From: Branchiostoma floridae
Taxonomy: Eukaryota; Chordata; Leptocardii; Amphioxiformes; Branchiostomatidae
DNA: 64,000 nt
Direction of reading: 5' to 3'
NCBI RefSeq assembly: GCF_000003815.2
Contig: NC_049980.1
Span: forward strand, 33,388,946 to 33,452,945
Part shown: piece after piece, positions 33,927-62,503 of the stretch
Numbering within the stretch: the first letter of the stretch is position 1
Layout: each line of letters starts with the position of its first letter
Position numbers and translations under genes: made by a program
Notes under the pieces: generated by a model
The model's database searches: none
Seen by the model: the letters and a program-made list of their open reading frames with translations, nothing else
Told to the model about the DNA's origin: nothing

Positions 33927-34034
33927 ATTTTGTAGATATGTATGTATGCACCGTGAAATTGCGTCCTGTGAACACTTCCTTTTCGTTTTTGCCCATTATT
34001 TCTGTGCACCAGGGCAGCCTGAGAGTACGGCGAC

Positions 34035-35558
34035 ATGGCCACGGCGCTACAGCTCGTGCTGATCTCTGCGCTGATGACCGTTCTGAGGGTTTCCGGAATA
34101 GCTGGAGAATCCTGCAGGTGTTCCTCTTCCCTCTGTAACTGTAACAACAGAAGCCTCACCGTCGTTCCACAGGACCTGCCAACATACATCACCACCTTCA
34201 TGTTAGATGATAATTTAGTCACAACCTTAGGCAAGTCTAACTTCTCACGGTACCGGGAATTGACATCGCTATTTATGCAAAACAATCACATTGCCAATAT
34301 CCACGACCATGCATTTCATCACCTGCCAAGTTTAGGTAAATTGTATCTCGCGGGTAACCGCCTAACACGCCTCAGGTCTGACATGTTCACGGGGCTGGGC
34401 AGTCTGTTCTACCTTTCGTTGCATCATAACGAGATCAGCGACATCGAGGCCGGAACGTTCATTCCAACACCACAGCTGTCGGACTTAGACATGTATGGGA
34501 ACAAATTGACGAGCCTCGGAGCTGGGATGTTTGCGGGGCTGGGGAACTTGAGGAGCCTTTTTTTGCACGAGAATGGGATCAGCGACATTCAGGCTGGAAC
34601 TTTCAATCCAACACCACGGCTGGCACGCTTGTACCTACAGCAGAACAGACTCACAATCCTCCCAGGAGAAGTATTTGCCAATTTATCACGTCTAATAGAC
34701 CTCCGTCTCCATGGCAACAGCATAGACACTTTTCCTACTGACGTTTTATCAACAATTCCATCACTGTACTTCCTCGAGCTTCAGGGTAACAAAATGCTGA
34801 CTCTTCCCTTGACAGCCTTTAACATGCTCTCATCAATGTCCCATGTAAACATTTCAGACAACCCCTGGTCCTGTGACTGTAGGATGGTTCCCTTCAGGTT
34901 AAAGATGGAAGGAACTCGTTCATTTGAGTACCAAATAACTTGTTCCCAACCCGACAGCTTAAACGGAAGCAAGCTTAGAGATATCAGTCCCGAGGACCTG
35001 ATGTCAGATTGTGAGGAACCAACCATACTGAGGTTTGAAAGTGGTGACAATAACACAGTAGTAGAGGGGGAGACACTCCTTTTGGTCTGTGAAGCTTCAG
35101 GAATCCCCACACCAGACATCACAGTCATTCTTCCATCTGGACTGAATGTAACTGTTGAGTCAGGTGGGAGGGTGACTGTGGATGTGGATGGTACAATCAC
35201 CATAACTGATGTTACTGCTGCAGATGCTGGTCTGTACGTCTGTATTGCAGCAAGTCCTGTTGGCTCTACATCTGCCACGCTGTCTGTAGATGTAAAGCAG
35301 AAAGAGCCTCCGACTGTAACGATGGCACCAGCGAGTTCCCCTCCTCAGATTGTGAGCTTTGACAGAAGCAAAGACAACACACTGGTGCACGGAGAGCCTC
35401 TCCATTTGGTCTGTAAAGCTTCGGGGATCATCACAGTGATTTTCCCATCAGGACTGAACGCGACTGTTGAGTCAGGTGGGAGGGTGACTGTGACGGTGAA
35501 CGGTACTGCAGGGCTGGAAATACGGGGTGCATCTGCACTTCTGTGCACACAAAACTGA
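34035..35558 (+). CDS. Secreted LRR-Ig protein with incomplete second Ig domain
   Basis: A single-exon frame of 507 aa starts with a signal peptide (MATALQLVLISALMTVLRV, aa 1-23). Then come a cysteine-rich LRR N-terminal cap (CRCSSSLCNC, about 27-48), nine 24-residue leucine-rich repeats (about 50-265, consensus LxxLxLxxNxLxxLxxxxF), an LRR C-terminal cap (NPWSCDC at about 277), one complete Ig domain (about 328-420, with CEASG and DAGLYVC) and the start of a second Ig domain (from about 435, CKASG). The second Ig matches the first up to GGRVTVTVNGT and then turns into unrelated sequence and a stop, losing its second cysteine. No transmembrane or GPI segment follows, so the product would be soluble. 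LRR-Ig proteins of this kind serve in adhesion or recognition at cell surfaces. An acceptor-like site (CACCAGGG) at 34010 suggests a 5' UTR exon upstream. Possibly a truncated paralogue. Confidence 0.85.
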   Translation: MATALQLVLISALMTVLRVSGIAGESCRCSSSLCNCNNRSLTVVPQDLPTYITTFMLDDNLVTTLGKSNFSRYRELTSLFMQNNHIANIHDHAFHHLPSLGKLYLAGNRLTRLRSDMFTGLGSLFYLSLHHNEISDIEAGTFIPTPQLSDLDMYGNKLTSLGAGMFAGLGNLRSLFLHENGISDIQAGTFNPTPRLARLYLQQNRLTILPGEVFANLSRLIDLRLHGNSIDTFPTDVLSTIPSLYFLELQGNKMLTLPLTAFNMLSSMSHVNISDNPWSCDCRMVPFRLKMEGTRSFEYQITCSQPDSLNGSKLRDISPEDLMSDCEEPTILRFESGDNNTVVEGETLLLVCEASGIPTPDITVILPSGLNVTVESGGRVTVDVDGTITITDVTAADAGLYVCIAASPVGSTSATLSVDVKQKEPPTVTMAPASSPPQIVSFDRSKDNTLVHGEPLHLVCKASGIITVIFPSGLNATVESGGRVTVTVNGTAGLEIRGASALLCTQN

Positions 35559-40800: not shown

Positions 40801-42616
40801 TCTCTTTTCTCAACGTCAATGCCACTGTGGACACCACGAACCAAGACCCGAAGGCCACTTAAATGTTACATGAGTAGGGAAGGGACAGCGTTTCGTCCTC
40901 CTATGAATAATGTCAGAAATATCATGATTGAGGCAAGTTCGACTCACTGATTATAAGAGTGAGAAGGACCATCTGATCTGACACAATAGTCGAAGTGGGG
41001 GCAATACACAAGCACAAACACACACATACAGACACACACACACACATATACGTGCACATTCACTAGCACACACACGCGCACATACACACACACACACACA
41101 CACATACACACAAACTCTCTCACGTGACACACATCTAAAGATATTGATTGTCATCATTATCGCAATATTCATAAATGCATACTTTTCTGCAGTTTCCTGA
41201 TCTTTCCTATATTTATTTTTCATGTCTAGGTGGACGACTATCGACTCCGCATCGGGCTGGAAGACGAGAACAGCGTTCGTCTGTTCGAGGTGTCGCTGGA
41301 CCGCTATCTCCTCACCGACTACCTCTTCAACTCCTGGCCCTTTGGCGCGATGGAAGTGGAGGTACAGTTATTCAGGTGTCTTCTATGTAACGTCATGTGT
41401 TATCTATTATAGTCCCGTTTCACAAGGTGCTACGATCTCGCGGGGATCGCCGAGCGAGCAAAGATTTGATCGCTAAACGAATTTTGTAGATAAAATGATT
41501 TTGTGTCTCAAGCAACGGGATAGACTTTGGGAATGGCCCCTGCAACAATATGTAAATGTGTTATAGTATATAGTACTGCATATGTCTAGATGATGGAGTA
41601 AATAGTAAGACACTAGTGTGTAAAATATGGTAAGGGAATGCTCGTGTAAATATTCTATAATGATTGTGTTTAGTTTTAAGTGATTATCTTTGAATGTTTT
41701 GTAATTTATAACTTGTGAATAAAATGTGAGAAAAAAAAAAAACAAAAAAAAAAAACGGGATAGACTTTGAAAAATAGCCACGGTCTTCATCAATTTTTTA
41801 CCGTTCCAAATCTACCAGTTACTTGAGTGACTGTTATCTGTGTATTTTATGACCTGGATGTCAATCCTTCATCGACATACTTTGCTAGTTGCGTATTTTT
41901 TTAAACTTATCAAGTTGCTTTGTAACTGCTATCTAGCACCTGTAACTTAATACCTAGATATCAGTTACCTTCACAATCTATAATAGTAATAGATAGCTAC
42001 ATGTATCTATTTGAGTAATTGTGATCTTGTGTATCTCATTACCTGGATGTCTATTCTTTAAAACCTATCAAGTGGCTTTGTAATACCCTGGATACCAGAC
42101 CCCAGGCCGATCTCAAAATATCTATCATGTGGGATAGATATTAGTGAGACCGGGCTGTGGTCTGGTATCCAGGCTAGCTTTGTAACAGCTATCTAGTGTA
42201 TCTTATTACCAGGATATTTAACCTTCGTGATCACAATTTATCTGTTTCAGTAACTGTGATCTTGCATATCTTATTACTAGTACTTGGATCAAGTTGGATG
42301 TCTAATTTTATGGACGTTCCATCCACACGTACAGATAGAGATCGCGGGAAACATCACCGAGGAGTCGGTGCGAAGTCTCGGGGCCGTCGCGGCCGCCCTG
42401 GAGGAAGAATTTCCCGGTCTGCGCCGCTCCACCTACAGCAAGGGCGGGCTGTTCCTTCCCGAGGCCGAGGGCACCGTGGCGGGGCTGATGTGCGGCGGGG
42501 AGGGGTGGCCCTGCTCCGGGGACTACACGTGCGTGCCGCGGGGACAGAGGTGCGACGGGGTCGCCGACTGTGGCGACGGAAGTGACGAAAGACAATGTCC
42601 TTCTGACCGGAAGTGA
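37847..42616 (+). CDS. Secreted protein with C-terminal LDL-receptor class A domain
   Basis: Four exons in phase 0 (37847-38386, 40595-40777, 41230-41361, 42335-42616) give 378 aa. An N-terminal hydrophobic stretch (NSLLALICAVTLTLAPCQIA, about aa 28-48) is a signal peptide or anchor. A Thr/Pro-rich spacer follows, then an unrecognised domain of about 250 residues with N-glycosylation sites (NGSE, NYTA) and motifs YVDYYYDTASLEL, CDLSYDAIRVMKREHP and RLRIGLEDENSVRLFEVSLD. It ends with one LDLa module (about 338-373) with six cysteines and the calcium-binding pattern CDGVADCGDGSDERQC. No transmembrane segment follows, so it is probably secreted. LDLa modules bind ligands in a calcium-dependent way; the role here is unknown. 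Intron 1 holds a minisatellite made from exon 2's own 5' half. An AATAAA at 42989 is a likely polyadenylation signal. Confidence 0.78.
38655..38880. repeat. CTTC-rich low-complexity tract in intron 1
   Basis: Irregular runs of TTCC, CCTT and TCCC over about 225 bp. Open frames across it are artefacts of the pyrimidine bias. Confidence 0.85.
39127..40594 (+). repeat. Exon-border minisatellite: ten copies of acceptor plus exon 5' half
   Basis: Copies begin near 39127, 39287, 39424, 39573, 39662, 39830, 39988, 40124, 40298 and 40446, and the real exon starts at 40595. Each has a (TTCA)n/(TCTA)n tract, TTCCCCAG, then about 100 bp nearly identical to the start of the real exon (GGAAGCCCCAGCCGTGTAGG, AGCGATCTGGGG, CCGTGAGAGCGA, GCCGTCATCTCC) before dropping back into TTCATTC. 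Copies 1-3 and 6-8 are almost the same, giving a higher-order repeat of about 700 bp. Copy 4 has an internal deletion. The exon's unique second half is absent from all copies. Confidence 0.93.
41000..41115. repeat. (CA)n microsatellite
   Basis: Interrupted CACACA/CATACA tract within the intron between the second and third exons of the LDLa gene. Confidence 0.95.
41530..41755 (+). mobile_element. Retroposed sequence with poly-A tail and target-site duplication
   Basis: An insert of about 225 bp ends with AATAAA (41718-41723) and, 7 nt later, a tract of A residues (one C). It is flanked on both sides by CGGGATAGACTTTG (41516-41529 and 41756-41769), a 14-16 bp target-site duplication. This is the signature of LINE-machinery retroposition. 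The body carries no recognisable coding sequence; it looks like the 3' UTR end of an mRNA or an unknown SINE. It sits in the last intron of the LDLa gene, in the same orientation. Confidence 0.9.
42087..42175. mobile_element. Short MITE or hairpin
   Basis: CCTGGATACCAGACC at the left and GGTCTGGTATCCAGG at the right are inverted copies continuing with mismatches to a short loop. It sits inside the last intron of the LDLa gene. Confidence 0.75.
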
Positions 42617-45491: not shown

Positions 45492-46416
45492 TTATAGGAC
45501 GCCGGTGGTAAAGTGGATGTCGATGTACTTGGCCAGCCGTCTCCGCCCGCAGCGGTCTAAACCGGTCACCAGGTTGATGATCGTCGCGTCGTCGCTGTTT
45601 ATCTGCTGCCACAAGCTGAGAATCTGCAGAAAGGAAAACACAATTTAGTCACACTACTGCATTTGTTACGGTGAGGTGGTTACGTTACGTTACGTTACGT
45701 TACATGTTTACGTTACGTTACATACGTTACATGAGGTAAATCTTTTGAACCATTCCAGTTAATACCCCATGTTACGCACATCATTGGACATACTATGGTC
45801 TTGCCCTTGTTGGGAAGGCAGATTTTGATGTCGGAAAAAGTGTTGAAGGTTCGGACACCTTCACCTTCGTGGCTTTTATGTTTCGGTTTTCTGTGCACTT
45901 TCAGGTAAACGGTCTTAAGGCTCTTACAAAGAATGAATAAACCATTCCTACACGTTTGTAATGTATTGTCATGGATAACATCCGCGTTCGCATAAATTTG
46001 TGGCAATTTCCAAAAATTAAATAAAAAGTTTTCAACCATACTGTAAATCATACAATGCAGCAGCAAAATGAGAAATACATGCCGTATATTGCAATATGAT
46101 ATCAGAAACGTATACCAATGTCAATGTCAAAGAAGAAAAAAAATGAAAGACCAAAAATGAAAAATCTGTTGTTCGGTATACCATATTCTGTGTGTTGATT
46201 CATTTGTTCAACCATCCTGACCACAAAAGTAAATATTTCTCACCTTCTTCGTGCGCTCCTTGCTCCCTCTGTAGGACTTCTGCACCACCTGCACCATGTG
46301 TTTGGTCAGCTGCGTCCCCGGCAGACACCGCACCAGTTTCTTCCACCCCCCTCCCACGCGCTCAGAGATCAGGTCGAACACCGCCTCCCGTCGGGCGTCC
46401 TCGTCACTAGGAGGGA
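45492..46416 (-). other. Death-domain exons (11 and 12) of the phosphatase gene
   Basis: Exon 11 (46244-46416, acceptor CTCACAG, donor GTGAGA) and exon 12 (45492-45623, acceptor TCTGCAG, stop TAA) encode a six-helix death-domain pattern: [15 protein letters not shown], then [20 protein letters not shown], then [18 protein letters not shown]. The Trp in the second helix, the LxLW of helix 4-5 and the AL/GL-x-x-x-x-RR-x-LA end are typical; the closest familiar layout is FADD-like. Death domains normally form intracellular complexes with other death domains in apoptosis and NF-kB signalling. Confidence 0.88.
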
Positions 46417-49400
46417 CTGTGAGAAAAAAGAGAGAGAAAAATTATTCGTTGATCTTCAACATGCTGGTAGAGCATGGGATATAAAAATTAATGGATATGA
46501 TCACAAATCTAGCACACCTTTACCAAAGACAAACACATGTACTTTCAATCTACTTATGTCATGTCCAGACTACATATCTTCGTATTTAGGCCAATACATA
46601 TGTAATGCTCTAAAAAAGAGAGAATCTATTGTACAGTAACAGACCGACTTGTTTAACTTGTATATTATACTATGTTAATACACTATTTATGTTCACATTC
46701 CTGTACTATACATGTATGTAGTTATAGAACTTAGACGAGTCATTGTATTGATTGACTTATCACCGTTGCCTTACAATTGTACCATGTACAAATGCCGTGC
46801 AATAAAGTTCATTCATTCATTCATATCCATGAGGCTCAACTGTTTGGCCTCACTGTTGAGCCCTTGGTTCCAATTAGTTGGTGACTGCAACTGCAAGACC
46901 CCGGTTCTAGTCCTGGGTAGGGCATCTCAGTTAGGGCTGCGGCATCTTTCGGAAGGGACGGAAAATGGGGGTCCCGTTTTCTAGACGGTGGTTCGAGCAC
47001 TTTAAGGTTAAGGGCTCCGGGGCTTCATGTAAAGACCCCATGTAAAATATATACTGCTACAGAAACAGCAAGGAAACTTGCTGTCCTGTGTGTCACTAGG
47101 CACGGTACAAGGGTCTGAACAAATTTTCCTACAGGAAACGTCAATACAAGAGACTTACTGAAGATGTAGGGGGTAGTCTTGTGCACGGCAGGGGTTGTGG
47201 GGGGCGGTGTTGTACTCGGGGTGGGTTTTTCAGTGGCTGGCCGACCGGTGCTGTGTGAGACGTCATGTGTGACTTCATGTGTGACGTCATGTTCTGACGC
47301 AGCGACGTCCGGCACGTTCTTGGCGTCATGATTTTCGTCGATTTCGGATTCTTCCTTCTCCTCCGCTTGCGGTCGTTCAGCTTGTTCTTCCGCCTTTTTC
47401 TTGCTGGCTTCCTTCTGGAGACAGTGCTCCTTCGAGTCGCCGAGACACGAGGCGTACTGAGGAAAAGGAGAATGCTTTTTTTGTTAATTTGTTACAAGTT
47501 TACTAATTCTGATAAACTTAGAACCCTAAATTATAAAACCTTTGTCGCATTGAAGTTTAAAACGGATTTTATTTTGAGGACAGGTGGTCACTATACCAAG
47601 AATTCTTCATACTTACATCAATGATAAAATTTATCTAGGGGTCCACCAAAAATTGGTCACACTGGCCAGGTGTCCCTTATGTAGAGGTAGTCACTTGAAC
47701 GACACTGACTGTTGCTTGCTAAGAGTAAGAGTAAGACTAACTATACCAGGGTTGAAATCAACGCGAGCTATTGCCTCCTTCGCAGACTTCAGGCGGGGAT
47801 GGCTTTTATTTTATGGGGGGGTCGCGATTTTCAACGTTGGCGGGGCGAAACTGCTTCCACGGCATAAGAGAACCTGGCCAACGTTGAAAATCACGAACCA
47901 ACCCCCCTCCACCAATAAAATAAAAGCCAGCCCACTCGATGTCTGCGAAAGAGGCAACTTAATGTAAGAAGAGCGGAGAAACCGCCTGTACCGTACCTTG
48001 ATGGCGTGCGCGATGTAGCTCTGATCCTGCACGCCGTGGAACAGGTGCGACATGGGCCCACGTGCGTAGATCGACACGTCCTCACCTGCGTGCGACTCGT
48101 CCGGGAACGGCAGCGTCGCCTGCTGACGGTAGTTTTTGTCCGCTAGACGAGAAAGAAACAGATGCAAAAAGTGATATGCCTGTCTTAGGCTTAGGTCACA
48201 TTTCCAAACCGGGCAAGTCTAGAAGAGATTATAGAAAGGTCTCGGGTGGTCTTACCGACATCTACGCGGCGGATGTCGTGCCTCCTGCCGTTGCCGTGCA
48301 CGGCGAAGCCCGGTCCGTTCGCGTAGATCAGCGTGGTGAAGGGCAGCCCGTCCTGCGCCCAGTCCTCGCCGTCGTACGCCTGGCCAAGACCTGAGTTGTC
48401 AAACAAAAAAGGGACAAACTGTGAGGAAAATCACTTCATGTAGAAGAAGGGAAATACGTCGATGAAGGTTAGACATCCAGGTAATAAGATACGCCAAATA
48501 GCAATTACTCAAGAAACTGGATATGATTCTGGAAACTAATGCAAGCTCAGACAAGATGTGTTAGAATATTCGGACTTTCCCAGAACTATCGTAGGGTGAA
48601 ACCCGTTATCATCAAGTTCAGTCGGAGCATCCTGACAAGATAACTTCTAACAATATTTGCAATCAGATGTGCAAAAGCTAGGTGCCGCGCCGCGTGCCTG
48701 CGAAGCTGATGTGTTAAGTCCAAGGGCGGTTATACCAGCTATATAGATACAGAATGATGATGATGATAGATACAGATACACGAATTCTTTTCAAAAATAA
48801 TTTCTTCTGAAACGTACCGATAATGGGCCGACCCCGCATGGGGTACCCCCCGATGGTGAGGGTGTGTGAGTGGTCCGCCGTGACGATGATGAGCGTGTCC
48901 TCGGAGGAGGTCAGCTCCTTGGCCCGCTGGACGGCCCGCTCCATCTCGATGGTCTCCGTCAGGGCGCGAGTCGCTCGGCCCTTGTGGTGACCGTGGTCGA
49001 TACGGCCGCCTGAAGGAACGGATAGAAAGCGGTTACGAAAAAAAATACATCATAAAATGTAGCAACTGGAAAGGATACAAAGTACTAGTAAGCTGCAATA
49101 TTTACATAATTTCACAGAGCAAGTTGTGACGTTTACACCTCGGTCACACATTCAGATACTTCCCACAACTTTGCTCCCAACCAAGACCGGTACAGACGAA
49201 TTTTTAAGACAAGTAAGTAGCTTTGGCTACCAACAGCATCTCTTGTGCATATTTATTGGTATGTTTTTAGCAAAGTTGGATAGTTGCGGGGGTTACGTAT
49301 ACGTGTCGTGGTAATAACTTGGCAAACTATATGGTAAAACAGAGCCTGGACATCCTCACACTCATTCCACAGATCAAGTTGTGACATTTACCCTCTACGA

Positions 49401-52400
49401 AGAGGAAGTATCCGTTGTCGTCCTTCTGCAGCATGCGGATGGCCTTGAATATGAATTTCCTGAATTTTAATTTGTCAATGACTTTCAAAGATTCTCGACA
49501 AACTCCCAACCATGTTCTGGAGAAGGTTGGGAGGCCAAGGTCGGCTACGTGTGACACAAGAGGCCATGGTTAGCTATGTGTGAAGACTGTGGCTTTACCT
49601 TCGACGAAGAGGAAGTAGCCGTTGTCGTCCTTCTGTAGCATGCGGATGGCCTTGTCCGTCATCTCCGTCAGGGTGGGCTCCCCGGCCCGGTCCGTGTCCG
49701 TCACGTACTGCATGTGGCTCGGCTCGAACAGACCTGGGAACGACATGGACTCAGGATCAAACAGCCTTGGGAACGAGAGGACAGCACATTCTGTCATTCC
49801 AAATCGCATTTTTGAAGTGAAAATTTCGTATTGAAAAGGCGAGACGCATAATACAACATCTGTGACAGATAGCTCAACGAATTTCACAAAGAATGAGTTC
49901 TTTTTTTTACGTTTTGTGTGTTTTGCTGTCTTGCAAATCTGCTTGCAAACTATACTTTTGCATCCTTCATCACATTCCAGTTATCGTGTGAATCAAGTGT
50001 CACATAAATGCACTACCAGTGGACTAGCCCCCTACTGTTCGTAGTGACTTCACAAATTCGTGTGGCCCAATAACTCGTGAAAAAGAGATTGGCGCCGCCC
50101 TGGCGCCATCTGGTTTGGGAAGGACTATCTGTCACTATGTACCAAGGAGGTAGTCCGTCTTCATTGGGTCTATATTGTCGAACTGCTCCTTGTTCTAGAC
50201 GTAAGACGTTGCTGTCACTACTTACCGAGGAGGTAGTCCGTCTTGAGTGGGTCTATCTTGTCGAACTGCTCCTTGTTCCAGACGTAAGACGTGTTGAAGT
50301 CCTCCTTGCCCCAGCCCCACTCCACCACCAGGTTCCTGCCGTCGCGCCGCCGGCCGCGCGTGTGCGACTCGTGAGGGTACTCGGGGTCGATCGCGTTGTC
50401 GAAGAAATTGCGGCGGCCTCCTCCGAGAAGCACCTGCGGAAATGAGACCATGAAAATGTAGTTGAAGTGGATTAAAGGGAGAAGGAGGCATGGGGAAAAC
50501 ACAGGGAGAAAGGATGAGAAGGGTACGGGTACCCGGGGTCGATGGCGTTGTCGAAGAAGTTACGGCGGCCTCCGCCGAGAAGCACCTGCGGAAATCAGGC
50601 TTTTTCAATGAAAATGCAGTTGAAGTTGAATGAAGGAAGAAGATTGAAGTTACACTGAATTCGTAGGGGAACTTGGGGTCAGTCACCTCGTCAAATAAAT
50701 TGTGGCGTCATCCTCCAAGATCTTCGCGGAGTTCCATTGGAAATGTGGGAACATATAGATCTTTCAATCAAGGGTTTAGATAGCCACTCTTCCAGTAAAA
50801 TGGGGCTATCCTAGACCTCTATCTCAGAATGTTTAGATTCTTACACCATGTTCCCTACTAACACAGGTCAATTTTCCTACTAAGTCTACCTTATAGTTCC
50901 TGCCGTTCTCGATGAGCTGCGAGGCGATGTCCTTGCAGCCGTCGCGCTTGGCCTGGTCGGGCATGTCCGAGTCGTTCTCCCAGCCGCGCTCGGGCGAGTT
51001 GGCGTAGGTCCCCGCCGGGCTGGCGTGCGTGAGCCGGGTCGTCGTCACGACACCCACGGACTTGCCTGAAATGATGCTTTTGTTTAGCTTGGGTGCCATC
51101 CGATTACTACCTGGCCCGCCCTAAAAATATTTTCAGGTAGTAATCGGGTGTCACCCAGGCTAAATTTTGTTTGTTTGAACTTTTATTTGATCATGAAAAA
51201 CTGTTGGATTTTCGTATACGTCCACAGTCAACAGGGACACTTCGCAAAGACGAGACGGAAACTGATTTGCTACGGAGGCCCTTACCGACAAAAGCACCTA
51301 GAACGCAATACCTCGATCACATAGCCCGCTCACCTTCGTTAAAATGTAGTAATGCAAAATGAAAACATGAAAATGCAGCTATTTGACGGACATGCAGCCA
51401 CTCTCTTATTGGTAGAACCGTAAGTTTGACTTGTTAGGTTATTTTGATTTTCTGTAATTTTGCAGGAAGAATAGATTTTGCGGAGATTGCAATCTAATGG
51501 AGATTGCAATAAACAAAACAAACAAACTGCGATGGACGGGTTAACTTACCGTCTTTGTCCGCGAGCCTGGCGACGGAGTCCACCTTGTGCTTGTCCCCGC
51601 CCATGGCCCGGCAGTCTCCCCTTCGGACCGACGCGTCCACGCCGACCGTGCCGAAGTTGGCCTTGGCGCCGCACAGGTACGCCGTGGCCGAGCCCGCAGA
51701 GTCAGCCACCTGACGGTCCACGTTGTACGTCTGCAGGGAGGGGGGTGGGGTGGATTTTATTTCTTTATTTTATCTATATCCTTAACTGTCCACTATCTGA
51801 CTATGAATATAATCATATCAGAATGGGGCAAATTCATGGGTGCAAATATTTAAAAAATGACACATGTCTTTGTACTCTTACTAGTGAAATAATGTGACAG
51901 AGGAGTGCTATCACATTTGCTCACGAATAGACACAATCTTTGAACTCTTACTAGTGAAATAATGTGGCAGAGGGGTGCTATCACATTTTCACCAATACTT
52001 CAAGAGTCTCTTGAAGCAGGTCAGATTTGGAGCCGTACGTGTGTCTGGCGTTAGGTTGTTCCATTGGGTATACGGTATACTTAGGCTATCGATCTTCTGA
52101 AGGTCTCTCGTTAAGTTTATCTCATCAATACTCGTGCAATAGAAAAGTTTCCACCAGACCGACCTTTGACATCGCCACGTGCGGAAAGTCCTCCCAGGAC
52201 AGTGCGGACTCCTCTCCCGCCAGACCCTCCAGTTGGCCCTTGAGAATCCTGGCAGCCGTGACGGTGGAAACCCCCATACCGTCCCCCAGAAACATGATGA
52301 CGTTTTTGGCCACGTTGGTGTTGAGTTGGTTGGAGACGAAGTTCTTTATGGCCGCCTGGGCGCTTTCCTTCCAGTAACTCGCGTCTGAAAAATTTGTGTA

Positions 52401-55400
52401 TTAGCATTACAGTTTATCTAAACATCTGCGTTTAAGTTTACGGGGATTGAGTTTTGCGGTAGCGGGGAAAACTTGGGAGCGTTCGCGGTGGTTTCGAGTT
52501 CCTGGTAGTGCCATTTACCATTAACGTTAACGTTACTTACTATTACTGTAGTCACGTACTGTAATGAAAAATGTTTGCGGTGGTTTTTGAATTCGTATTG
52601 AAGCGGCCTCGTGAAAACCGCGAACATAAATCCACCGCCAACATTTCTGTATTTATTTCTTCTTCAGGGTAATACTGACTGTTTTTACTTTGAACTGCAG
52701 CTAGGTGTCGCTTTTGCAATGTGAAACATGCGGACCACACCAGCACGTGACTGTGTTAGTACCCCCCTCATCATGGTTTATAACTAAGATAGATGTTCTG
52801 ATCCATTTAGACCGTCAATATCGACCATCACTCTTCTCATAAACACTTGGTCGATGGACATAACGTTACATATACCAAAATACAACAGGCTGCATGTGCA
52901 AATGTGCATTATTAAGATCAAGAACACCACAAATAGAGGCATATTCGCAGGGCCAGGGGCATCTTCTCTGGATAGTTTCAAAGAATGCAGACATATGTGC
53001 AAAAGTTATGTGTGACGGGTCCTTCGGTGTAGCATAACAAGCTGCTGCCGCGCTGTGAAGCTGATGTGTTACGCCAAAGGGCGGCTACATAGATACCGAT
53101 ACAGAAGCTTGTGTGTTATGTTATGCCGAAGGGCGGTTATACCGGCTACATAGATACCATGATAGATGGGAGAACCATGATAGATACAGAATACAGATAC
53201 AGAAATAGTCTAGGCCCCTGAGTCACAGTCTTCACATCCACCCTCGTGTTTGGACAGTAAACATGACGGAAGCCTTGAGCGCTGAGTAGAGGCAATTCGA
53301 GACGTGCAGGGACGTGAACATGACGCGATGAACATGACATCACATTATCACGTGCGGTGCACGTGCGGTGCACGTGGTAGCTATCCTATCCCACCGGGAC
53401 GCCGTGTTCCCCAACTGCGTGTCTCGCTCACGTACGCGTCAGACATCACTCGACTTGACACATGCATGTCTGACCTCTCCGTCTAATCCCCTAGCAAATG
53501 TCGAAAGGCAAAATCCCACAACGATTCAATGCGGAACGATCCCCATTCATCCTCGGTGGTAAAGTATTAAAACAGGCGCAGAGGTTGTGTGACAATCGAA
53601 ACCAGGTTTCAGTAGACCTCCCAATCATAGTCCCTCCCGGACATACGAACCCTAGTCTCCAGGCAGATGTGTCAGCTGGATGACAAAAGGGGAAGAATTT
53701 GGCCAAATAAGTCGCCATGGGATTTCAGTCAGTCTTTTGTCACTCTATCCAGCTATCACTCGGTCAGTTCACTCCTAGGCCAATTAACTCCCACTAGATT
53801 TTTATTCCTAACTACGTATTTTAAATCCAAAGTCCCCTATTACTATTCGGCCAGGAGGGAGTCTGGGAAGAACCTAATCTCCAAGCAGATCCTACGGTAT
53901 CATAAGATAGTATCAAAAGCTGCCAGAGGAGTGAAGCCGGCTTATGAGTGTGTTTTGCTACCGGGGCAAATGGACACCTCTTGGCTGACTACACTCCTTG
54001 GCCAGTTTGGTACTATCTTATGCCGTTGTAGGATCTGATTGGATATTAGGAAGAACCCTCTGGCCGAAAAACGTGGTCTAACACCAGTTAGAGACAAACC
54101 TCTGTCTCCAAAAAGCCCGTGTTACACTAGACTAGATTTCTCTTGCATCAAGAATGTCACAAGGAACTGCACCGGTTAGTCTCTACCAGACTCCCGCCTG
54201 GCCGAATCCTGGTCCGGACTTTGGCCAATTTAGGAATAAGGGCCGATTTACACGAGGCAAAAAGAATAACTTCAAACTTGTCCTACGACGTTCGACGCGT
54301 GGCGCGGCAAAAAAAGTGTCCTAGGACACGCGCCGCGCGTCGAACGTCGTAGGACAAGTTATTTTTTTTTGCCTCGTATAAATTGGTCCAAAAAGCCTAG
54401 TACAATGTAGTTGCTTAGGAGTGAAGTGACCGACGGGATAGGCTGCAAAAGACTGACTGAGATCCCATGGCAACTTGTTTGTCCCTATTTGGTCAAATTC
54501 GTCTCTGTTGGCACCCAGCTCGCACGTCTGCTTGAAGACTATGCATCGGTAACCTCCTAGATCACCCGTATGTTGTTTTTCCTGATCCTTACATGCTGAC
54601 CCGCGATTTAACATACCTCGAAAATACTTCAGTCTGGGAACAAAGAATTTAAGTAAACAGGCGTATAGGTTGCGTGTCACGCGAGCTTTTGTCAGATGTA
54701 TGTATGAGTCAGTGAAAAAAAGGAAAATCCTGGAAAAATAACTTCGATTCTTGGAGGAATTTCAAAGAGAGTTTGGCGAGATTTTCCCAACTTAGCGTAA
54801 TGCCGTGGCAGGCCTCCCTGCGTAGCGTATAGTGTTGTCGGGACGCACACCTGAGTGTGAGCAGGGAAAAATTCTATGCAAATCCTGGAACAATGATGTC
54901 AATTTTAGAGGACTTTTTGAATTAGTGTGATACGATGTAATACGTAGCTGGCTTTTCCAATTTAGCGTAGGGCATTGTCGTACTGAGAAGGAACTAATCT
55001 CCAAGCAGATCCTACCATGGCATAAGATACATTTGTAGTACCAAACTGGCCAAAGACTGTAGTCAGCCAAAAGGTGTCCATTTGCCTAGTAGCGAAACAC
55101 ACTCCTCGGCCGGCTTCACTCCTCTGCCAGCTTTTGATACTATCTTATGCTACCTTAGGATCTGCTTGGAGATTAGGAAGGAACCCTACTATTCTCGATA
55201 AGTGTGGGCTCTCCTCAAACACGGGACCTCCGAATTACGTACGTCCCATCCGAGGGACGGCCCTAACCGAAGCTCATTTTCACCTGAGTGACGCGAGGAA
55301 AGTCGCGTTAGGCACCTTTCCCAAGGGCACAGCATGTCAGGGATTTCAACCCAGAAATACGCCACCCCTTACGCCACACGATGCCACCACGCACAGGACG

Positions 55401-58400
55401 TTGGCCTACTTTATCTCTAGTCAAGCACGTTATATGACGTTATATAACGTCCTTGCTCTAGTAGATCACACACCTGCGCAAATAGGCAGATAGTTACATA
55501 AGTAGAAATGCGGTCATGTAAATAGGCAATAGTACTTATACATGTATAGTATGCGAATAGATTGGTAGTTGGGTAAATGATGAAATAGGTGTACTTCGTG
55601 AAGATATAAACGTAGTTTGGGTGGACACGAGTTGGCATGACATAGCCAAGGACAAGCGAGTGTTAGACTACCTTGCAGTCTTCGAACGGGGCTGTTTTTT
55701 ATGGGGGGGGGGGGCGTTGGTTCGCGATTTTCAACGTTGACTGGGTTCGCTATCACGGCAAACTCCCTTTCACACCAAACTCCCTTCCTCGGCAAACTCC
55801 CTTTCCCTGCACAAGAGAACCCAGGCAGCGTTGAAAACCGCNNNNNNNNNNNNNNNNNNNNNNNNNNNNNNNNNNNNNNNNNNNNNNNNNNNNNNNNNNN
55901 NNNNNNNNNNNNNNNNNNNNNNNNNNNNNNNNNNNNNNNNNNNNNNNNNNNNNNNNNNNNNNNNNNNNNNNNNNNNNNNNNNNNNGCATTTATGTGACAC
56001 TTGATTTCACACGATAACTGGAATTTGATGAAGGATGCAAAAGTATAGTTTGCAAGCAGATTTGCAGGACAGCAAATCACACAAAACGTAAAAAAATGCG
56101 CTCTTTCTTTGTGCCTTTCGCTGAGCTATCCTCCCAGCATGTTATACTTTGGATCTCCGGACACCCCCCCCCCCCCCCCAATAAAAACCAGCCCCGTTCG
56201 AAGACTGCAAGGGAGTCTAAGCGAGTGTAAAGAGCCCCGGTAGAAATCGGATTGTACCCAGGCTAGACATGACAGAGGGCTTTTAGGAACCTTAAATTTG
56301 TTACCTCACGAGCAGCTGAAATCAGCCTGCAGGCCGCTTTTCGTTAATTGAAGTCTGATGTTGATGAGGCTCAGGGAAGATGTAAGGGTCAGACAATATT
56401 TCAGAAAGATACACGAAATATTAGTTAAAGTCCTTCCCACACCAAATGGTGCATAGGGTGGCGCCCATCTCCATTTCATTAGCCCTGAGCCACACAACGT
56501 TTGTGCAATCATTACAGTAGGGGGCTAGTCCGCTTGTAGTGGTCTGCAGTGTAACTACCATGCCCTTTCTCAAATAAACAGAGAAAGCAACATGTGCCAT
56601 TTAAAAAACGTTGGTATATATAACTAGGCAGTAGATTGGAACTATACCGAATGCATCAGTACAGATCAGGTCAGATTAGTAATGTCTTAATTTTGAAACT
56701 TGACCGTGATTTAAGAGAAGTCGTTTCTCGCCACGGGGCTTTGCTAACCTTGAGAGGTTTGACCAAGATTCCGTGAAGGACGACAAAAGCGGGCCGTGTT
56801 GACCCACTAACGATGACGTGACCTGTCCTGTCTAGTCACTTGACATGTCCTGTCTAGTCACCGAAGGTCGAAGTGCCCTTAGGTAAGTATCAAGTATCTC
56901 AGACTGGATGATGGCGTAGTTCTGTAACTGCATTTAAGTGCGCGTGGATTTAATTCCGCGGTATGTCCGAAAGTCCGAAGCACCTAGTATATAGTATTCA
57001 TTGATGAAGTGTCATAAAACTAAGGGCTGGCCTGGGTTTTAGAATGTCCTTCATCTTGTACCACATAAAAATGACTTAAACCCCCGTTCCAAAGGGCCAG
57101 AGCAGTGTCCTGGAAAATCTCCAAGCAGATCCTACGGTAGCATAAGATAGCATCAAAAGCTGCCAGAGAAGTGAAGCCGGCCTAAGAGTGCGTTCTGCTA
57201 CCGAAGGCATCACCGATGGCAGCTTTTGATAGCTTAACACACCCCTATGTCGGCTTCAGTCCTCTGGTAGCTTTTGATACTATCTTATGCTACCGTAGGA
57301 TCTGCCTGGAGATTATATCCTGGACACTATTTTGGCCCCTTGAACCCTTGGATACTGTTAAGATACCGATAATTCTGCCTGGAGATTACGATTTGATACA
57401 GCGTCATTGTTGAAGTCGACTTAATTCTTTCGGACTCCTAGGTGCACATGTGAAGAATTTGGACTAATCAGAAATCTCCGTGCGAAGATTGAAAGGGGAA
57501 CGCCCTAAGCTTTTCGGACTGACCCACTTTGAGGCCGCCTCTCTCTGCAAAGTCTGCTTGAAGGATTACTACAAGGTACATCAGAATTAAAGTTCATTGA
57601 CCCTCCTATCTAGGGCAAGTACTCTCCGAGCAGAGGTTGGTTGGTTGACTGAGGTTCTTCTCAAATTCCCAGGACATGTCCTTGATTGCACACGCCGTCA
57701 GACAAAAGATAAAGATAGAGTATATATTGAAATGAAAAAGAGGCTCACAATCTTCCCTGCCTTCCCTCCTGCTTGTCACAGGACGGCCGAATGAACAATG
57801 CACCATTTTTCGTCTGTATTAACCGATTCATTGTATTTCTATGTGGCTGGCAAAGACATTTTTTTGTGTGTCAGAAATTGATTTCCATACACTTATTATC
57901 ACTCAATCGATGACTGTAATAACCCAACATCTCTGCTCCTAGAGTATCCTGAATTTCCAGTCAAGCTTTTAGGCGGGTTCCTGCGAACCGCTTTTCCATT
58001 TTAATTGTCTTGCAGTTTAGCGTTCTTCCTTGTGTGTTTGCCGGGGATAGATAATAGTACTCTCCAAGCAGAGGTTAGGCTCCGGCTGTTTTTTAAACGT
58101 TTTTTAGTCGTTTTCATCGGGCTTTCTATTTTGTATTTTTTTCGCGTGTGTCCNNNNNNNNNNNNNNNNNNNNNNNNNNNNNNNNNNNNNNNNNNNNNNN
58201 NNNNNNNNNNNNNNNNNNNNNNNNNNNNNNNNNNNNNNNNNNNNNNNNNNNNNNNNNNNNNNNNNNNNNNNNNNNNNNNNNNNNNNNNNNNNNNNNNNNN
58301 NNNNNNNNNNNNNNNNNNNNNNNNNNNNNNNNNNNNNNNNNNNNNNNNNNNNNNNNNNNNNNNNNNNNNNNNNNNNNNNNNNNNNNNNNNNNNNNNNNNN

Positions 58401-61400
58401 NNNNNNNNNNNNNNNNNNNNNNNNNNNNNNNNNNNNNNNNNNNNNNNNNNNNNNNNNNNNNNNNNNNNNNNNNNNNNNNNNNNNNNNNNNNNNNNNNNNN
58501 NNNNNNNNNNNNNNNNNNNNNNNNNNNNNNNNNNNNNNNNNNNNNNNNNNNNNNNNNNNNNNNNNNNNNNNNNNNNNNNNNNNNNNNNNNNNNNNNNNNN
58601 NNNNNNNNNNNNNNNNNNNNNNNNNNNNNNNNNNNNNNNNNNNNNNNNNNNNNNNNNNNNNNNNNNNNNNNNNNNNNNNNNNNNNNNNNNNNNNNNNNNN
58701 NNNNNNNNNNNNNNNNNNNNNNNNNNNNNNNNNNNNNNNNNNNNNNNNNNNNNNNNNNNNNNNNNNNNNNNNNNNNNNNNNNNNNNNNNNNNNNNNNNNN
58801 NNNNNNNNNNNNNNNNNNNNNNNNNNNNNNNNNNTGGGTTCCTGCGAACCGTTTTCCCAACTTAATTGTCCTTTTTCAGTTTGCCGAAGATCGATGGCAG
58901 TAATAGCCCAATATTTTGGCTCCTAGAGTATCCCTAACTTCCATTCAAGCTTTTAGGTGGGATCCTGGGAACCGATGTGAAAGTTAATTGTCTTTTTTAG
59001 CGCTCTTTTCTGTGTTTTTGCTGGAGATCGATGAGTGTAATAACCCAATATCTCTGCTAGAGTATCCTGAATTCCCAGTCAAGCTTTTAGCGCGGTATTT
59101 AGGCGGGTTCATGCGCTTCACGGTGTATTTTTCGAAGATCGATGACTGTAATAACCCAATATTTCGGCTCCTGTAGTATCTCTAACTCTCAGTCAAGCTT
59201 TTAGGTGGGATCCTGCGAACCACTGTGCAGGTTAATTGTCTTTTTTAGCGGTCTGTTTGTGATATTTTGTGTGCTTCCCCAAGGAGCTTATATCATGAGC
59301 ATCCTTGGTTTGCCAGAGATCGATGACTGGAAGAACCCAACATTTCGGCTCCTAGAGTTTCCTGAATTCTCACTCAATCTTTTAGGCGGGTTCTGTGCAG
59401 GTCAATTGCCTGTTTTTCCAGCACTCTTTGTGTATTTGCCGGGCACATGACACAGAGATCGATGGCTGAACACGGAGGTGACCACGCCGACCGCACGCCT
59501 TTCCCGCGCCGCGGGCACGAAGCGTATCGGGTTACCAGACATGGGTGGGCGGCAGGACACGCCGTGACCACAAGCACACACACTGCTCTTCAAGCAGAGG
59601 TTCGGTTCTGGCTGTGTTTGGCAGTTAACCTTAACGGTTAGCGTTTTGTCGGGCTTTGTATTTTGTACAAATTTCTTCATATCTACTGTCCACACATGAA
59701 GCGGTACAAAATAGCAAGTTCGAAAAAAACGCCTAATTTCATGACAATCCATCCATAGCTTCTTGAGCTATGCTGCTATGAAACCACAAAAACATACATG
59801 TATTCATAAATACAAGCATACAAAAGCTACCGAATACATAACCTTCTTGGCGAAGATATTCATCGGCCATGAGATTTCCCCCTTCGAAATACGCCGGACG
59901 GCGAATGAAACCCTGTTGTCACCTCTCAGAGGATGAACTAGGTTGAACTTGAAACTGATTACTGAAATGAAGCCCTGTAATGACCATTTCACTGAAAACT
60001 CTGGCGAAATTACTCTCCCCATGCCCATAGCCAGCGTAATAGTCTGGTTCAGACTAGAAGATTGTGACCATTTCTAAGGACTTCAAGCTCAATCAGCCGA
60101 GACATTCAATAAAGAAAACGGGACATGCGATATGTGAGGAATGCTACAATCTTACCCCCCAACCTTCCCCAATTTTGTCTGACTCTATTAAACCTCTTCC
60201 CTCATGACCTCAATGAAAAGTGACCTGCAGGACGATTTCAGCTTCTCGTGAACAAACCTGGTTCAAACAACACCTCTCAGACTTGGAGAGTTCTGTAACG
60301 TAACACAGTAGCTGTGATCTTTCGGTCACGGAGTGCCAAGCTGTTCGCGCTAAATACCCAGCGCTACTGTATTACGTTTCTTTACAGTACACTCCAAGCA
60401 GAGGTTTGTGGGTAAGATTGTGGCAAGCTTGCCATATCATATGCCCGTTTTCTCGATCGAATAAAACGGGGCATTGGAGAATAATCTTATCTTCCCAATC
60501 AATTTCAAACTCAATGCAGTAGAGCTGCTAGCTAGTGCGAAAAACTTGGCGCTCGGTTATCGAAATGCCCACACAATCTCACTCACAGCTAAGACAGCTA
60601 ATGTACTAGTATTGTCCAAGCAGAGGTGTATTAAGATAGCGTTACACACAGTACATAACGATTTCACATTATCATATCGAAATTGTCCACAAAAGTCACT
60701 CTGCGTTAAGTTATATGAATTCCGATGATACTTCCGAGTGTCATGTATCATAAATATCTACCATTTTCACGTCATTAAAACATTATTTGATTCAGGAACA
60801 TCATGCTGAAAGGTCACCAAAATAAGGCAACGTTACGTGATGTTCGTAAACTGAGGAATGTTTGCGTCATACATAACGAGACAGTTATCATTTCTGTGTC
60901 TTGTATATAGTGTGTAATGTAAACAATTATGACTTGATTCAAAAACATCATGTAACATTACCTCATTTGGTGACCTTCGAAAACAAAGGATCGTCGCAAG
61001 CTTTAAATTTTAAACTATAGTCGACATCAATGCCGACTGGAAATCATATTGTCAAGAATTGTCAACGTGGAATTGTCCTGTTTGATTTTACCTTCGTCAA
61101 GCGCAAGAAAGTTATGTTTTTGGCTTAGTTTGTATGTTGTCCGTCTGGTCCGTATTGGCTTGTCCGTCTGTCGACAGCATAAGTCGAGTGACTGTGGATG
61201 GATCATTGGTAGGTGGGTAAGGTTAGGAGTCCGGAAAACGAAGGTCAAGTTCGATAATGAGTCACTAATTCAATGATTTTTGTTTGTTTTATTTAGTTCT
61301 CCGTTAGTATTGCACTATTTGGTTTGACACTCTGCCCAGAGCCCGTGTTAAGTGTGGGAATCTTTATGCACAAATGACCATACAGTGAGCTTAAGTCCCA

Positions 61401-62503
61401 CGGTAAAAGAAGCCGGTGAAAAGGCCGGCTTAACATGCCCCTGGGGCCACCAACAACATGCACAATACAAGAAACTACCGACCCCAGTCAAAGTATGGCA
61501 GGATTTCCCTACAGGACAGTCGGTGGAACACCAACCCTATTGTACCAATGTTGACGTTGTCAGTGGGAATCTGTCGTCTCAGCTGAAAGCAACGTTATTA
61601 GTAATCATTAGTCTACCAAATCTTGCTGCTCCGCGTGCGAGCTGGCCGACTTGCCTGTGGCTGAAGTGCCTTGGCAGATTGCCATAACGATAAAACATAC
61701 GGTTCTGAAGTGCATTAGAAGCATATTAGCCTGGTGAGCACACCATCGTGAGCTCGACGGGATCTCTACGGTGATAGGAGCGTTGCCCGCCCGCCCAGTT
61801 CATGAGCGCAGGCCGGGGAATTTTTACGGGGTTGGTCTGGTACGGTGATAACTCGGAAGGTCTATTCTCCAAGCAGAGGTTGGGTCGCGGAGATATTAGT
61901 GGCCGGGATTTTTACCCACCTTTTTTTCGCTCGTGAGAAGAGCGAGCCGATAAAAATCCCGACGACCACTTCTATCTCCGCGACCAAACCTCTGCTTGGA
62001 GAATAGGAAGACCGGCTAAAAAAAAGACAAGCTGACAGAAACATGACATATAACCGTTGTACTGCATGACACACATGCATATCAAATTCCCAAGAAACAC
62101 GTCACGCGAACTCTAGACGCCCTCTTCCTGTCCTTTGAAAGACCAATGTTTAAACGAGTGGTAACATTATAGAATGAACAAGCCACTACGGAACCCAAAA
62201 TCTAACCATTTTCAGTTTTTTGTCACCTACACACCAAATATAAAACCAATCCTTCCAGTCGTTCTTGAGTTATCTTGGTGACCAACAGACACACTGACAC
62301 ACAGACACGCACACATAAACACATGAAACACACACGCACGCACACACATACGCACACCGCCAAAAATATAACCTTTTCGACGAAGGAAAGAAAGCAGACT
62401 CAAACTTACCATTCTCGAAGTCCCGATCTTGAGCAAAAGTCGCCCACGGCCCAGCTCCCACGAATACAGCCGCCACCAGCAGAATCATACAAGTATTCCT
62501 CAT
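45492..62503 (-). CDS. Alkaline phosphatase fused to a C-terminal death domain
   Basis: Twelve minus-strand exons with matching phases give 696 aa: 62410-62503, 52164-52384, 51550-51730, 50890-51065, 50226-50433, 49599-49733, 48818-49009, 48256-48390, 47997-48142, 47159-47456, 46244-46416, 45492-45623. Residues 1-26 are a signal peptide ([19 protein letters not shown]). Residues about 33-505 are a full animal alkaline phosphatase, a metal-dependent phosphomonoesterase. Visible catalytic elements: FLGDGMG (Mg/Zn Asp), DSAGSATAY (nucleophile Ser), HASPAGTYA (Mg-site Ser), the ER-x-W Arg that binds phosphate, [12 protein letters not shown] (Glu, Asp, His ligands), TADHSH and the last His in DESHAGEDV. 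After YASCLGD the usual GPI-attachment tail is replaced by a Lys/Glu-rich then Pro/Thr-rich linker (about 505-595) and a death domain (about 604-692). No transmembrane segment is seen between them. The phosphatase exons are certain; the splice from linker to death domain rests on good sites and phase. Confidence 0.87.
45676..45735. repeat. (ACGTT)n microsatellite
   Basis: CGTTA units repeated about eight times with interruptions, in the last intron of the phosphatase gene. Confidence 0.9.
46767..46825 (+). mobile_element. 3' end of a non-LTR retroposon
   Basis: TTGTACCATGTACAAATGCC, GTGCAATAAAGTTCATT and a CATT tail match 5066-5110. Sequence upstream to about 46440 may belong to the same insertion but has no recognised protein. 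Lies in intron 10 of the phosphatase gene. Confidence 0.55.
47771..47958. mobile_element. MITE in phosphatase intron 9
   Basis: Left end TTGCCTCCTTCGCAGACTTC and right end GTCTGCGAAAGAGGCAAC are inverted, and inner arms ATTTTCAACGTTGGC / GCCAACGTTGAAAAT also pair. A larger relative lies at 55666-56218. The class is unknown. Confidence 0.85.
48467..48535. repeat. Half-copy of the 24724 hairpin family
   Basis: GAAGGTTAGACATCCAGGTA, ATAAGATACGCCAAATAG and ACTCAAGAAACTGGATATG match the arm at 24700-24765. It sits in intron 7 of the phosphatase gene. Confidence 0.75.
49385..49460 (-). pseudogene. Partial duplicate of phosphatase exon 6 with its donor
   Basis: On the minus strand the segment repeats the last part of exon 6 ([19 protein letters not shown]) and runs into a donor-like GTAAA, about 205 bp beyond the real exon end at 49599. 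It has no acceptor of its own. It is a tandem duplicate of the exon-intron border. Confidence 0.85.
49980..50125. repeat. Dispersed 'GGGGGCTAGTCC' repeat, inverted copy
   Basis: CAGTGGACTAGCCCCCTACT and GGCGCCATCTGG are the reverse complement of phrases in 20440-20560 and 56430-56545. It lies in intron 5 of the phosphatase gene. Just left of it, 49800-49975 shares several phrases with 55986-56120 (for example TCACACGATAACTGGAA inverted). Confidence 0.55.
50133..50222 (-). pseudogene. Partial duplicate of the 3' end of phosphatase exon 5
   Basis: GGAGGTAGTCCGTCTT, TCGAACTGCTCCTTGTT and GACGTAAGACG repeat the plus-strand sequence at 50228-50295 with an 83-bp period. On the minus strand it holds the codons for WNKEQFD ... 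TDYLL with an internal stop from C-to-T change, and a weak donor GTACAT. Confidence 0.88.
50521..50740 (-). pseudogene. Two partial duplicates of the 5' end of phosphatase exon 5
   Basis: The segment 50521-50592 repeats the acceptor and first 50-60 bp of exon 5 (minus strand CCGCAG, then [17 protein letters not shown]). A second, more decayed copy lies at 50656-50740. The period is about 145 bp and includes intron sequence. Neither copy has the rest of the exon. Confidence 0.88.
51085..51162. mobile_element. Short MITE or hairpin in phosphatase intron 3
   Basis: TAGCTTGGGTGCCATCCGAT at the left and ATCGGGTGTCACCCAGGCTA at the right are inverted copies with CGATTACTACCTG / CAGGTAGTAATCG nearest the loop. 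Confidence 0.8.
52435..52655. repeat. Dispersed 'TTTCGCGGTGGTTT' element, second copy
   Basis: CGTTCGCGGTGGTTTCGAG, TGTTTGCGGTGGTTTTTGAA and ATAAATCCACCGCCAACATT resemble 5148-5355. It lies at the 3' end of the 10-kb first intron of the phosphatase gene. Confidence 0.6.
53040..53160. repeat. Two tandem copies of a GAAGGGCGGTTATACC-type repeat
   Basis: AAGCTGATGTGTTACGCCAA / TGTGTTATGTTATGCCGAAG each lead into GGGCGG, TACATAGATACC. Related phrases occur at about 48685-48760 and 37410-37480. Confidence 0.65.
53875..54048. mobile_element. MITE, CTCCAAGCAGATCC family
   Basis: Begins TAATCTCCAAGCAGATCCTA and ends TAGGATCTGATTGGATATTA in inverted orientation; contains AAAGCTGCCAGAGGAGTGAA and ACACTCCTTGGCCAG. 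About 174 bp. Confidence 0.85.
54241..54389. mobile_element. MITE with long GC-rich inverted repeat
   Basis: The inner arms ACTTGTCCTACGACGTTCGA and TCGAACGTCGTAGGACAAGT pair over about 32 bp, around a small palindrome TGTCCTAGGACA. Outer ends CGAGGCAAAA / TTTTGCCTCG extend the symmetry. Confidence 0.88.
54995..55175. mobile_element. MITE, CTCCAAGCAGATCC family
   Basis: Begins TAATCTCCAAGCAGATCCTA and ends TAGGATCTGCTTGGAGATTA, a near-perfect terminal inverted repeat about 180 bp apart. This is one of the best preserved copies in the window. Confidence 0.9.
55195..55365. repeat. Dispersed 'CGAGGGACGGCC' repeat, second copy
   Basis: CACGGGACCTCCGAATT, CCCATCCGAGGGACGGCC and TTTCCCAAGGGCACAG match 26935-27125. 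Confidence 0.65.
55666..56218. mobile_element. Larger foldback element interrupted by a gap
   Basis: Ends GACTACCTTGCAGTCTTCGA and TCGAAGACTGCAAGGGAGTC are inverted; G-runs and C-runs follow inside each end. The 144-N gap (55842-55985) hides its centre. It is related to 47771-47958 through the GATTTTCAACGTTGA / GCGTTGAAAACCGC phrases and carries short repeats of CAAACTCCCTT. Confidence 0.8.
55842..55985. other. Assembly gap (144 N)
   Basis: Run of N in the middle of a foldback element, consistent with a hairpin that was hard to sequence or assemble. Confidence 1.
56430..56545. repeat. Dispersed 'GGGGGCTAGTCC' repeat
   Basis: AAATGGTGCATAGGGTGGCG, CCCATCTCCATTTCATTAGC, CCTGAGCCACACA and AGTAGGGGGCTAGTCCGC match 20440-20560. 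Confidence 0.65.
57117..57315. mobile_element. MITE, CTCCAAGCAGATCC family
   Basis: Begins AATCTCCAAGCAGATCCTAC and ends GTAGGATCTGCCTGGAGATT. The inner arms GGTAGCATAAGATAG / CTATCTTATGCTACC also pair. A partial internal duplication around CTTTTGATA is visible. Confidence 0.88.
57908..59460. repeat. Tandem array, unit about 130-160 bp, split by a gap
   Basis: Units carry GATCGATGACTGTAATAACC, CAATATTTCGGCTCCTAGAG, TCAAGCTTTTAGG(C/T)GGG, TCCTGCGAACC and TTAATTGTCTTTTT. About six copies are visible, on both sides of the N-run 58154-58834, so the true number is unknown. The array lies inside the first intron of the phosphatase gene. Frames across it are artefacts. Confidence 0.88.
58154..58834. 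other. Assembly gap (681 N)
   Basis: Run of N within the tandem array. Confidence 1.
59461..61862. other. Intron 1 of the phosphatase gene, no exon seen
   Basis: Single MITE ends of the CAAGCAGAGG family lie near 59590, 60390 and 60615. A GC-rich patch at 59480-59580 stands out but shows no splice-bounded frame. Nothing else is supported. Confidence 0.45.
61863..62005. mobile_element. Complete MITE, CAAGCAGAGG family
   Basis: Ends TATTCTCCAAGCAGAGGTT and AACCTCTGCTTGGAGAATA are perfect inverted copies, 143 bp in all; inner arms GGTCGCGGAGATA / TATCTCCGCGACC and CGGGATTTTTA / TAAAAATCCCG also pair, with CGCTCGTGAGAAGAGCG near the loop. The whole element can fold into one hairpin. Confidence 0.92.
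62280..62360. repeat. (CA)n microsatellite in phosphatase intron 1
   Basis: Interrupted CACACA, CACGCA and CATACG units just downstream (minus strand) of phosphatase exon 1. Confidence 0.9.

Follow-up and report, generated by a model that had tools for sequence, protein, structure and literature searches.

How does an enzyme of the cell exterior come to carry a signalling domain of the cell interior? Animal alkaline phosphatases are normally tethered outside the cell and the death domain is normally an intracellular signalling part, and a gene of the lancelet Branchiostoma floridae joins the two. The window analysed here is the whole stretch of 64,000 nucleotides in which this gene lies (contig NC_049980.1), and coordinates are positions in it. 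Twelve minus-strand exons (62503-45492), rebuilt from the sequence, give one frame of 696 codons with its stop codon at 45494-45492. All 11 introns are GT-AG and the phases are consistent across all exons, in agreement with a preliminary description of the locus that had proposed 12 exons and one 696-aa frame. The presence of an alkaline phosphatase and a death domain in a single frame is confirmed. What this protein does is a matter of interpretation: we consider it an even chance that it is a secreted phosphatase whose splice-joined death domain has an extracellular task and, for want of an anchor, serves to dock or oligomerise the enzyme. The exons and one candidate extension are as follows.

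Exon 1, 62410..62503, minus strand: start codon and signal peptide, with a hydrophobic stretch.
Exon 2, 52164..52384, minus strand: alkaline phosphatase, with metal ligand D66.
Exon 3, 51550..51730, minus strand: nucleophile S116 (DSAGSATAY) and C145.
Exon 4, 50890..51065, minus strand: H179, R192 and C209.
Exon 5, 50226..50433, minus strand: E242 (calcium site).
Exon 6, 49599..49733, minus strand: F296, E297, E312 and E338.
Exon 7, 48818..49009, minus strand: D343, H347, D384 and H385.
Exon 8, 48256..48390, minus strand: alkaline phosphatase.
Exon 9, 47997..48142, minus strand: H465 (ESHAGED).
Exon 10, 47159..47456, minus strand: end of the enzyme (C500, C508), then the linker, acidic and afterwards Thr/Pro-rich.
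Exon 11, 46244..46416, minus strand: first part of the death domain; top-scoring acceptor among the gene's 11.
Exon 12, 45492..45623, minus strand: remainder of the death domain and stop codon.
Possible 5' extension of exon 11 (start 46463), 46417..46463, minus strand: would yield the ending, TC and stop, of the B. floridae database protein P0003; starts at 44391 and 34826 would also do so.

The enzyme part matches PF00245 at residues 57-501 over the full profile (positions 1-423 of 423; E 3.7e-156, 520.8 bits; Pfam), and its closest solved structure by sequence is human tissue-nonspecific alkaline phosphatase (TNAP; E 1.7e-159). In the alignment to vertebrate TNAP, D66, S116, E338, D343, H347, D384, H385 and H465 are conserved. 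H179 and R192 are likewise conserved, together with cysteines 145, 209, 500 and 508. T173 is replaced by S, and D306, a calcium ligand, by E; the latter change also occurs in the sea urchin relative P0035. We take the roles of the aligned positions (nucleophile; zinc, magnesium and calcium ligands) and the disulphide pairing of the four cysteines to be those of TNAP. Because the nucleophile, the zinc and magnesium ligands, H179, R192 and the cysteines are kept, the fused alkaline phosphatase is predicted to be active. The enzyme had been described as catalytically complete, and the alignment upholds this, including the histidine of the ESHAGED motif (H465). The fusion has the catalytic residues, the four cysteines and the signal peptide in common with animal alkaline phosphatases of PF00245, at ~45-56% identity to most of the listed relatives. 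However, most of those examined end in a hydrophobic tail, where the lancelet fusion continues into its linker and death domain.

The death domain, first called from the letters alone, also passes a profile search: PF00531 matches residues 609-686 of the whole protein with 33.3 bits (E 5.4e-8; Pfam), against a curated cut-off of 22.6 bits, and the last 101 residues scanned alone reach 38.2 bits. The linker between the two domains is 92 residues long. For the last 101 residues, the closest solved structure is the FADD death domain (E 6.3e-7), with which the G-W-L, L-W and LV-L-C positions align. Unlike that of FADD, the lancelet death domain is preceded by a signal peptide and an ectoenzyme, and no death effector domain match accompanies it. 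A genome-wide profile search gave at least 150 PF00531 sites in B. floridae, a lower bound. The death domain of the fusion, divided between exons 11 and 12, is not among the sites listed. The best of eight loci fetched, a single-exon death domain at L005:1447-1746, is 33% identical to that of the fusion (E 1.1e-9).

The same arrangement was found in other Branchiostoma species, where the preliminary description had suggested looking for it, at the level of protein domain order. P0001 of B. belcheri (693 aa; record labelled PREDICTED) and P0002 of B. lanceolatum (698 aa) both contain PF00245 and PF00531, and the residues at the exon 10/11 join are identical in these proteins and in that of the window. 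Since P0001 and P0002 share both the domains and the join residues, the fusion is more than a chance juxtaposition. Across the three species pairs, identity is 97.1, 94.2 and 95.2% in the death-domain region, 93.9, 93.7 and 91.2% in the enzyme, and 65.1, 62.8 and 70.5% in the linker. The death domain thus differs from the linker in every pair (P 2.7e-9, 9.3e-8 and 3.0e-6) and shows no difference from the enzyme (P 0.24, 1.0 and 0.23). With the same join in the congeners and a death domain conserved far above the linker, the fusion is, by these protein comparisons, inherited and under constraint in lancelets.

These data also bear on the idea that the join is an annotation artefact and that exons 11 and 12 come from another gene. 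Both exons are absent from the B. floridae database protein P0003, as such an artefact would have it. Yet the same join stands in two congener proteins, the exon phases fit, and directly upstream of exon 11 the frame reaches a stop without a methionine. We therefore regard an artefact as extremely improbable. Among the gene's 11 acceptors, those of exons 11 and 12 rank first and second (10.7 and 9.7, scored with a simple table of position frequencies). The GC content at third codon positions is 0.83 in exon 11 and 0.82 in exon 12, and the overall GC content is 0.40 in intron 10 and 0.36 in intron 11.

The pair had been thought rare, and among the 120 top-ranking matches (of 7922) to the full-length protein, P0001 and P0002 are indeed the only ones carrying both Pfam labels. 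Death-domain relatives within proteins of similar length amounted to 2 matches among 69 candidates, and a shorter query matched 0 of 37 candidates at E up to 1; a fusion that ranks lower, or whose death domain has diverged, may escape these searches.

On which side of the membrane would such a death domain lie? In each of the three species the signal stretch is hydrophobic, at a 12-residue hydropathy of 2.65-3.37. Identity across the N-terminal 24 residues is no more than 37.5-58.3% between species while hydrophobicity is kept, and divergence of letters under constant hydrophobicity is how signal peptides behave. From residue 496 on, no membrane-like hydropathy was found (19-residue maximum 0.59). 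AG/GT cassettes of 30-300 nt were scanned in introns 9, 10 and 11 for a membrane exon. Intron 10 holds 34 possible cassettes with a maximum hydropathy of 0.54, and intron 11, inside the death domain, 20 with a maximum of 1.39. Thus the membrane span that precedes the death domain in death receptors of the tumour necrosis factor (TNF) receptor type was not found from residue 496 on or in introns 10 and 11. A lipid anchor is not indicated either: a hydrophobic C-terminal tail is present in 83/87 relatives from outside amphioxus, a set limited to a length of 640 residues and thus without 30 longer proteins, and absent from the window protein, P0001, P0002 and P0003. Within its last 40 residues the fusion reaches a best 12-residue hydropathy of 0.86, with no glycosylphosphatidylinositol anchor signal tail. 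Given the signal peptide, the ectoenzyme cysteines ahead of the linker and the lack of a clear membrane span, the death domain is predicted to be extracellular. N-glycosylation sequons in the death domain (0/3 in the window protein, P0001 and P0002) are neutral in this respect.

The preliminary description had left two alternatives, a death domain working outside or in the secretory lumen, and a cytosolic isoform lacking the signal peptide. The first is favoured by the signal stretch, the kept cysteines and the lack of a convincing membrane exon, and for the second nothing was found. In a leaderless or retro-translocated form, enzyme and death domain would both be cytosolic and the death domain would recruit FADD-like partners. 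This would agree with death domains being known as cytosolic modules and with FADD as the nearest solved structure. Against it stand the signal stretch in all three species, the kept cysteines of the enzyme and the scarcity of alternative starts, as M1 and M6 are followed by no further methionine until residues 62 and 68. Read upstream from exon 2, the frame meets a stop before any methionine, a result that covers the stretch next to exon 2 and not other first exons in the 10-kb intron 1. A cytosolic form is in our view very unlikely.

For the extracellular reading, the following course is proposed. Exon 10 would be spliced to exon 11, so that the frame continues through the linker into the death domain, and the whole chain would enter the secretory path and be secreted, with the death domain outside. 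The death-domain region is basic (net charge +7, +7 and +8 across the three species' proteins, isoelectric point 9.8-9.9), in contrast to the acidic linker and enzyme. Sitting on its acidic linker, it might bind itself, a partner or a matrix polysaccharide. It would in this way take over the role of the anchor and hold the phosphatase near phosphorylated extracellular substrates. An extracellular death domain has a precedent in osteoprotegerin (TNFRSF11B), which is secreted as a dimer and contains, besides a heparin-binding end, two regions homologous to death domains (PMC4202272, PMC9076607). The docking or oligomerising role suggested here for the lancelet domain would follow this analogy. 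A weak match to PF23630 in the fusion (24.9 bits, below the cut-off of 27) also recalls osteoprotegerin. The two proteins nevertheless differ, osteoprotegerin combining two death domains with a decoy receptor and the lancelet fusion one death domain with an enzyme, and TNF-receptor cysteine-rich repeats gave no Pfam match in the fusion at E up to 1.

Several points weigh against this reading. The support from the congeners consists of database gene models, that of P0001 being labelled PREDICTED. In addition, P0003, an alkaline phosphatase-like protein of 597 residues and the sole B. floridae protein found, is identical to the window frame over residues 1-595 (595/595) and then stops after exon 10 with TC, without a death domain. 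In a search down to window position 30000, its end, TTPYIF-TC, could be obtained from exon starts at 46463 (junction CTCTACCAG / CATGTTGA), 44391 and 34826. The first of these would lengthen exon 11 by 47 nt at its 5' side, and splicing to it would probably produce a soluble protein that lacks the death domain. If exon 10 were instead read on into intron 10 (47025-47158), the product would have 639 residues and a hydrophobic tail resembling an anchor signal (2.35 over its best 12 residues), and such an anchored form may exist alongside the fusion. The main product in B. floridae could then be one without a death domain, either the 597-residue protein or the read-through form, and the fusion a minor or regulated isoform.

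The splice sites and the congeners speak for the fusion instead. With its 10.7, the acceptor of exon 11 belongs to the top 0.08% of 3706 AGs, whereas 46463 reaches 2.1 (6.6%) and 44391 -0.2 (14.9%); a low score excludes no site, however, since exon 4 of the same gene has an acceptor at -3.95. Use of 46463 followed by exon 12 would place the stop ~212 nt before the last junction, and a stop well ahead of the last junction is a usual trigger of RNA decay. Hydrophobic tails like that of the read-through form occur by chance in 45/210 control open frames in the gene span. Finally, both congener proteins carry the death domain, conserved as well as the enzyme. We infer splicing between exons 10 and 11 in B. 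floridae and hold a main product without the death domain to be unlikely, while the fusion transcript may alternate with forms that lack this domain.

A further adverse point comes from intron 9, where a hydrophobic phase-0 candidate exon can be drawn from 47957 or 47942 to 47874 (19-residue hydropathy 1.77). An overlooked membrane exon of this kind would turn the protein into a type I receptor with the phosphatase outside and the death domain inside, a topology that suits both domains. However, no insert is present at the position of intron 9 in either congener protein, and the cassettes of introns 10 and 11 stay at the low values given above, so that we judge a type I receptor distinctly improbable. 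The intron 9 exon itself was rejected on the missing insert and on look-alike translations, recognised by eye, elsewhere in the window.

The remaining adverse points concern the death domain itself. In the AlphaFold model of P0002 the enzyme is largely confident, with residues 391-470 weak, and five helices are drawn at 602-697, but the predicted local distance difference test score (pLDDT) of the death-domain block is about 33-61, mostly <50. Fold and surface of the domain are thus not confidently modelled, and we make no argument from its surface. A fold search with the same model shows alkaline phosphatases only among the 50 matches listed of 706 and is uninformative on the death domain. 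The domain contains a basic motif, GRRRLAKY at 679, of the heparin-binding type. A look-alike, GRRRDGRN, occurs at 251 in the enzyme and such a motif arises in 3.5% of shuffled death domains, which leaves heparin binding a weak idea.

The reading of a secreted, docking phosphatase can be carried one step further. In this bolder form, the lancelet death domain has moved outside, replaces the lipid anchor and clusters or docks the phosphatase, and the choice between two acceptors 47 nt apart decides for each molecule whether it is present. We offer this version tentatively and think it rather less probable than its failure.

The introns of the gene carry local repeats. Partial copies of the edges of exons 5 and 6, 82-93% identical, lie in introns 4, 5 and 6 (50527-50623, 50129-50209 and 49387-49447) and resemble a local duplication of exon ends; the copy in intron 5 has a stop codon within frame. 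Intron 2 contains a 52-nt direct repeat (94%) at 51867-51988.

Where might the fusion have come from? In a tree of 30 rows (29 chosen from 120 listed relatives, plus the window protein), one split (support 95/93) places 16 enzymes of hemichordates and echinoderms together with the amphioxus fusion clade. On the other side are the vertebrate rows and another B. floridae enzyme, P0024, whose branch is long; the tree is rooted at its midpoint, which does not settle the sister group. Alkaline phosphatases of hemichordates (Saccoglossus P0037 and Ptychodera P0051) fall on the same side as the fusion clade and have a Thr-rich stalk after the enzyme. They differ from the fusion in that the stalk ends in a hydrophobic tail and their Pfam labels include no death domain. 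The simplest history would be that a stalked, anchored enzyme swapped its tail for a death domain before the three lancelets split.

In the literature searched, which did not extend to supplementary tables, no description of the pair alkaline phosphatase and death domain was found, and no paper naming both an "alkaline phosphatase domain" and a "death domain". The one paper to bring the two terms together with amphioxus was a clam transcriptome study. The pair is not described in the accessible portions of PMC2575513, PMC6526094, PMC3469785, PMC11677397, PMC4202272, PMC9076607 and PMC4979521. Of these papers, PMC2575513 documents novel domain pairs involving death domains in amphioxus, and PMC3469785 mentions multiple amphioxus alkaline phosphatase genes. 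The fusion is a new architecture built from two known families, conserved in three lancelets and surprising in its topology, for which a mechanism is proposed here.

Other features of the window lie apart from this gene. On the plus strand, frames at 15008-22700 match chromatin assembly factor 1 p150 (PF11600 at 15008-15481, PF15539 at 22053-22700), a 511-residue open frame at 34023-35558 contains leucine-rich repeats and an immunoglobulin domain, and an open frame at 42281-42616 has a low-density lipoprotein receptor class A repeat (PF00057). Repeated units translated as RRINRFVCLFVC or similar occur on the minus strand at 30340-31632, beside an N gap. Numerous repeats translated as IYLSIPQGSPSRVGAIWGREEVGSRESEPD form an expanded local repeat on the plus strand at 39149-40873.

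If the secreted-fusion reading is true, a death domain would be usable in another compartment, being strongly constrained on an ectoenzyme in three lancelet species. Phosphate removal from extracellular substrates would be linked to assembly or retention of the enzyme. Such substrates could be nucleotides or lipopolysaccharide, which are included among those of vertebrate intestinal alkaline phosphatase in PMC7033233. The lancelet gene would then illustrate clearly how a protein-binding domain can take the place of an anchor signal, and would do so in a group already known for death-domain shuffling (PMC2575513).

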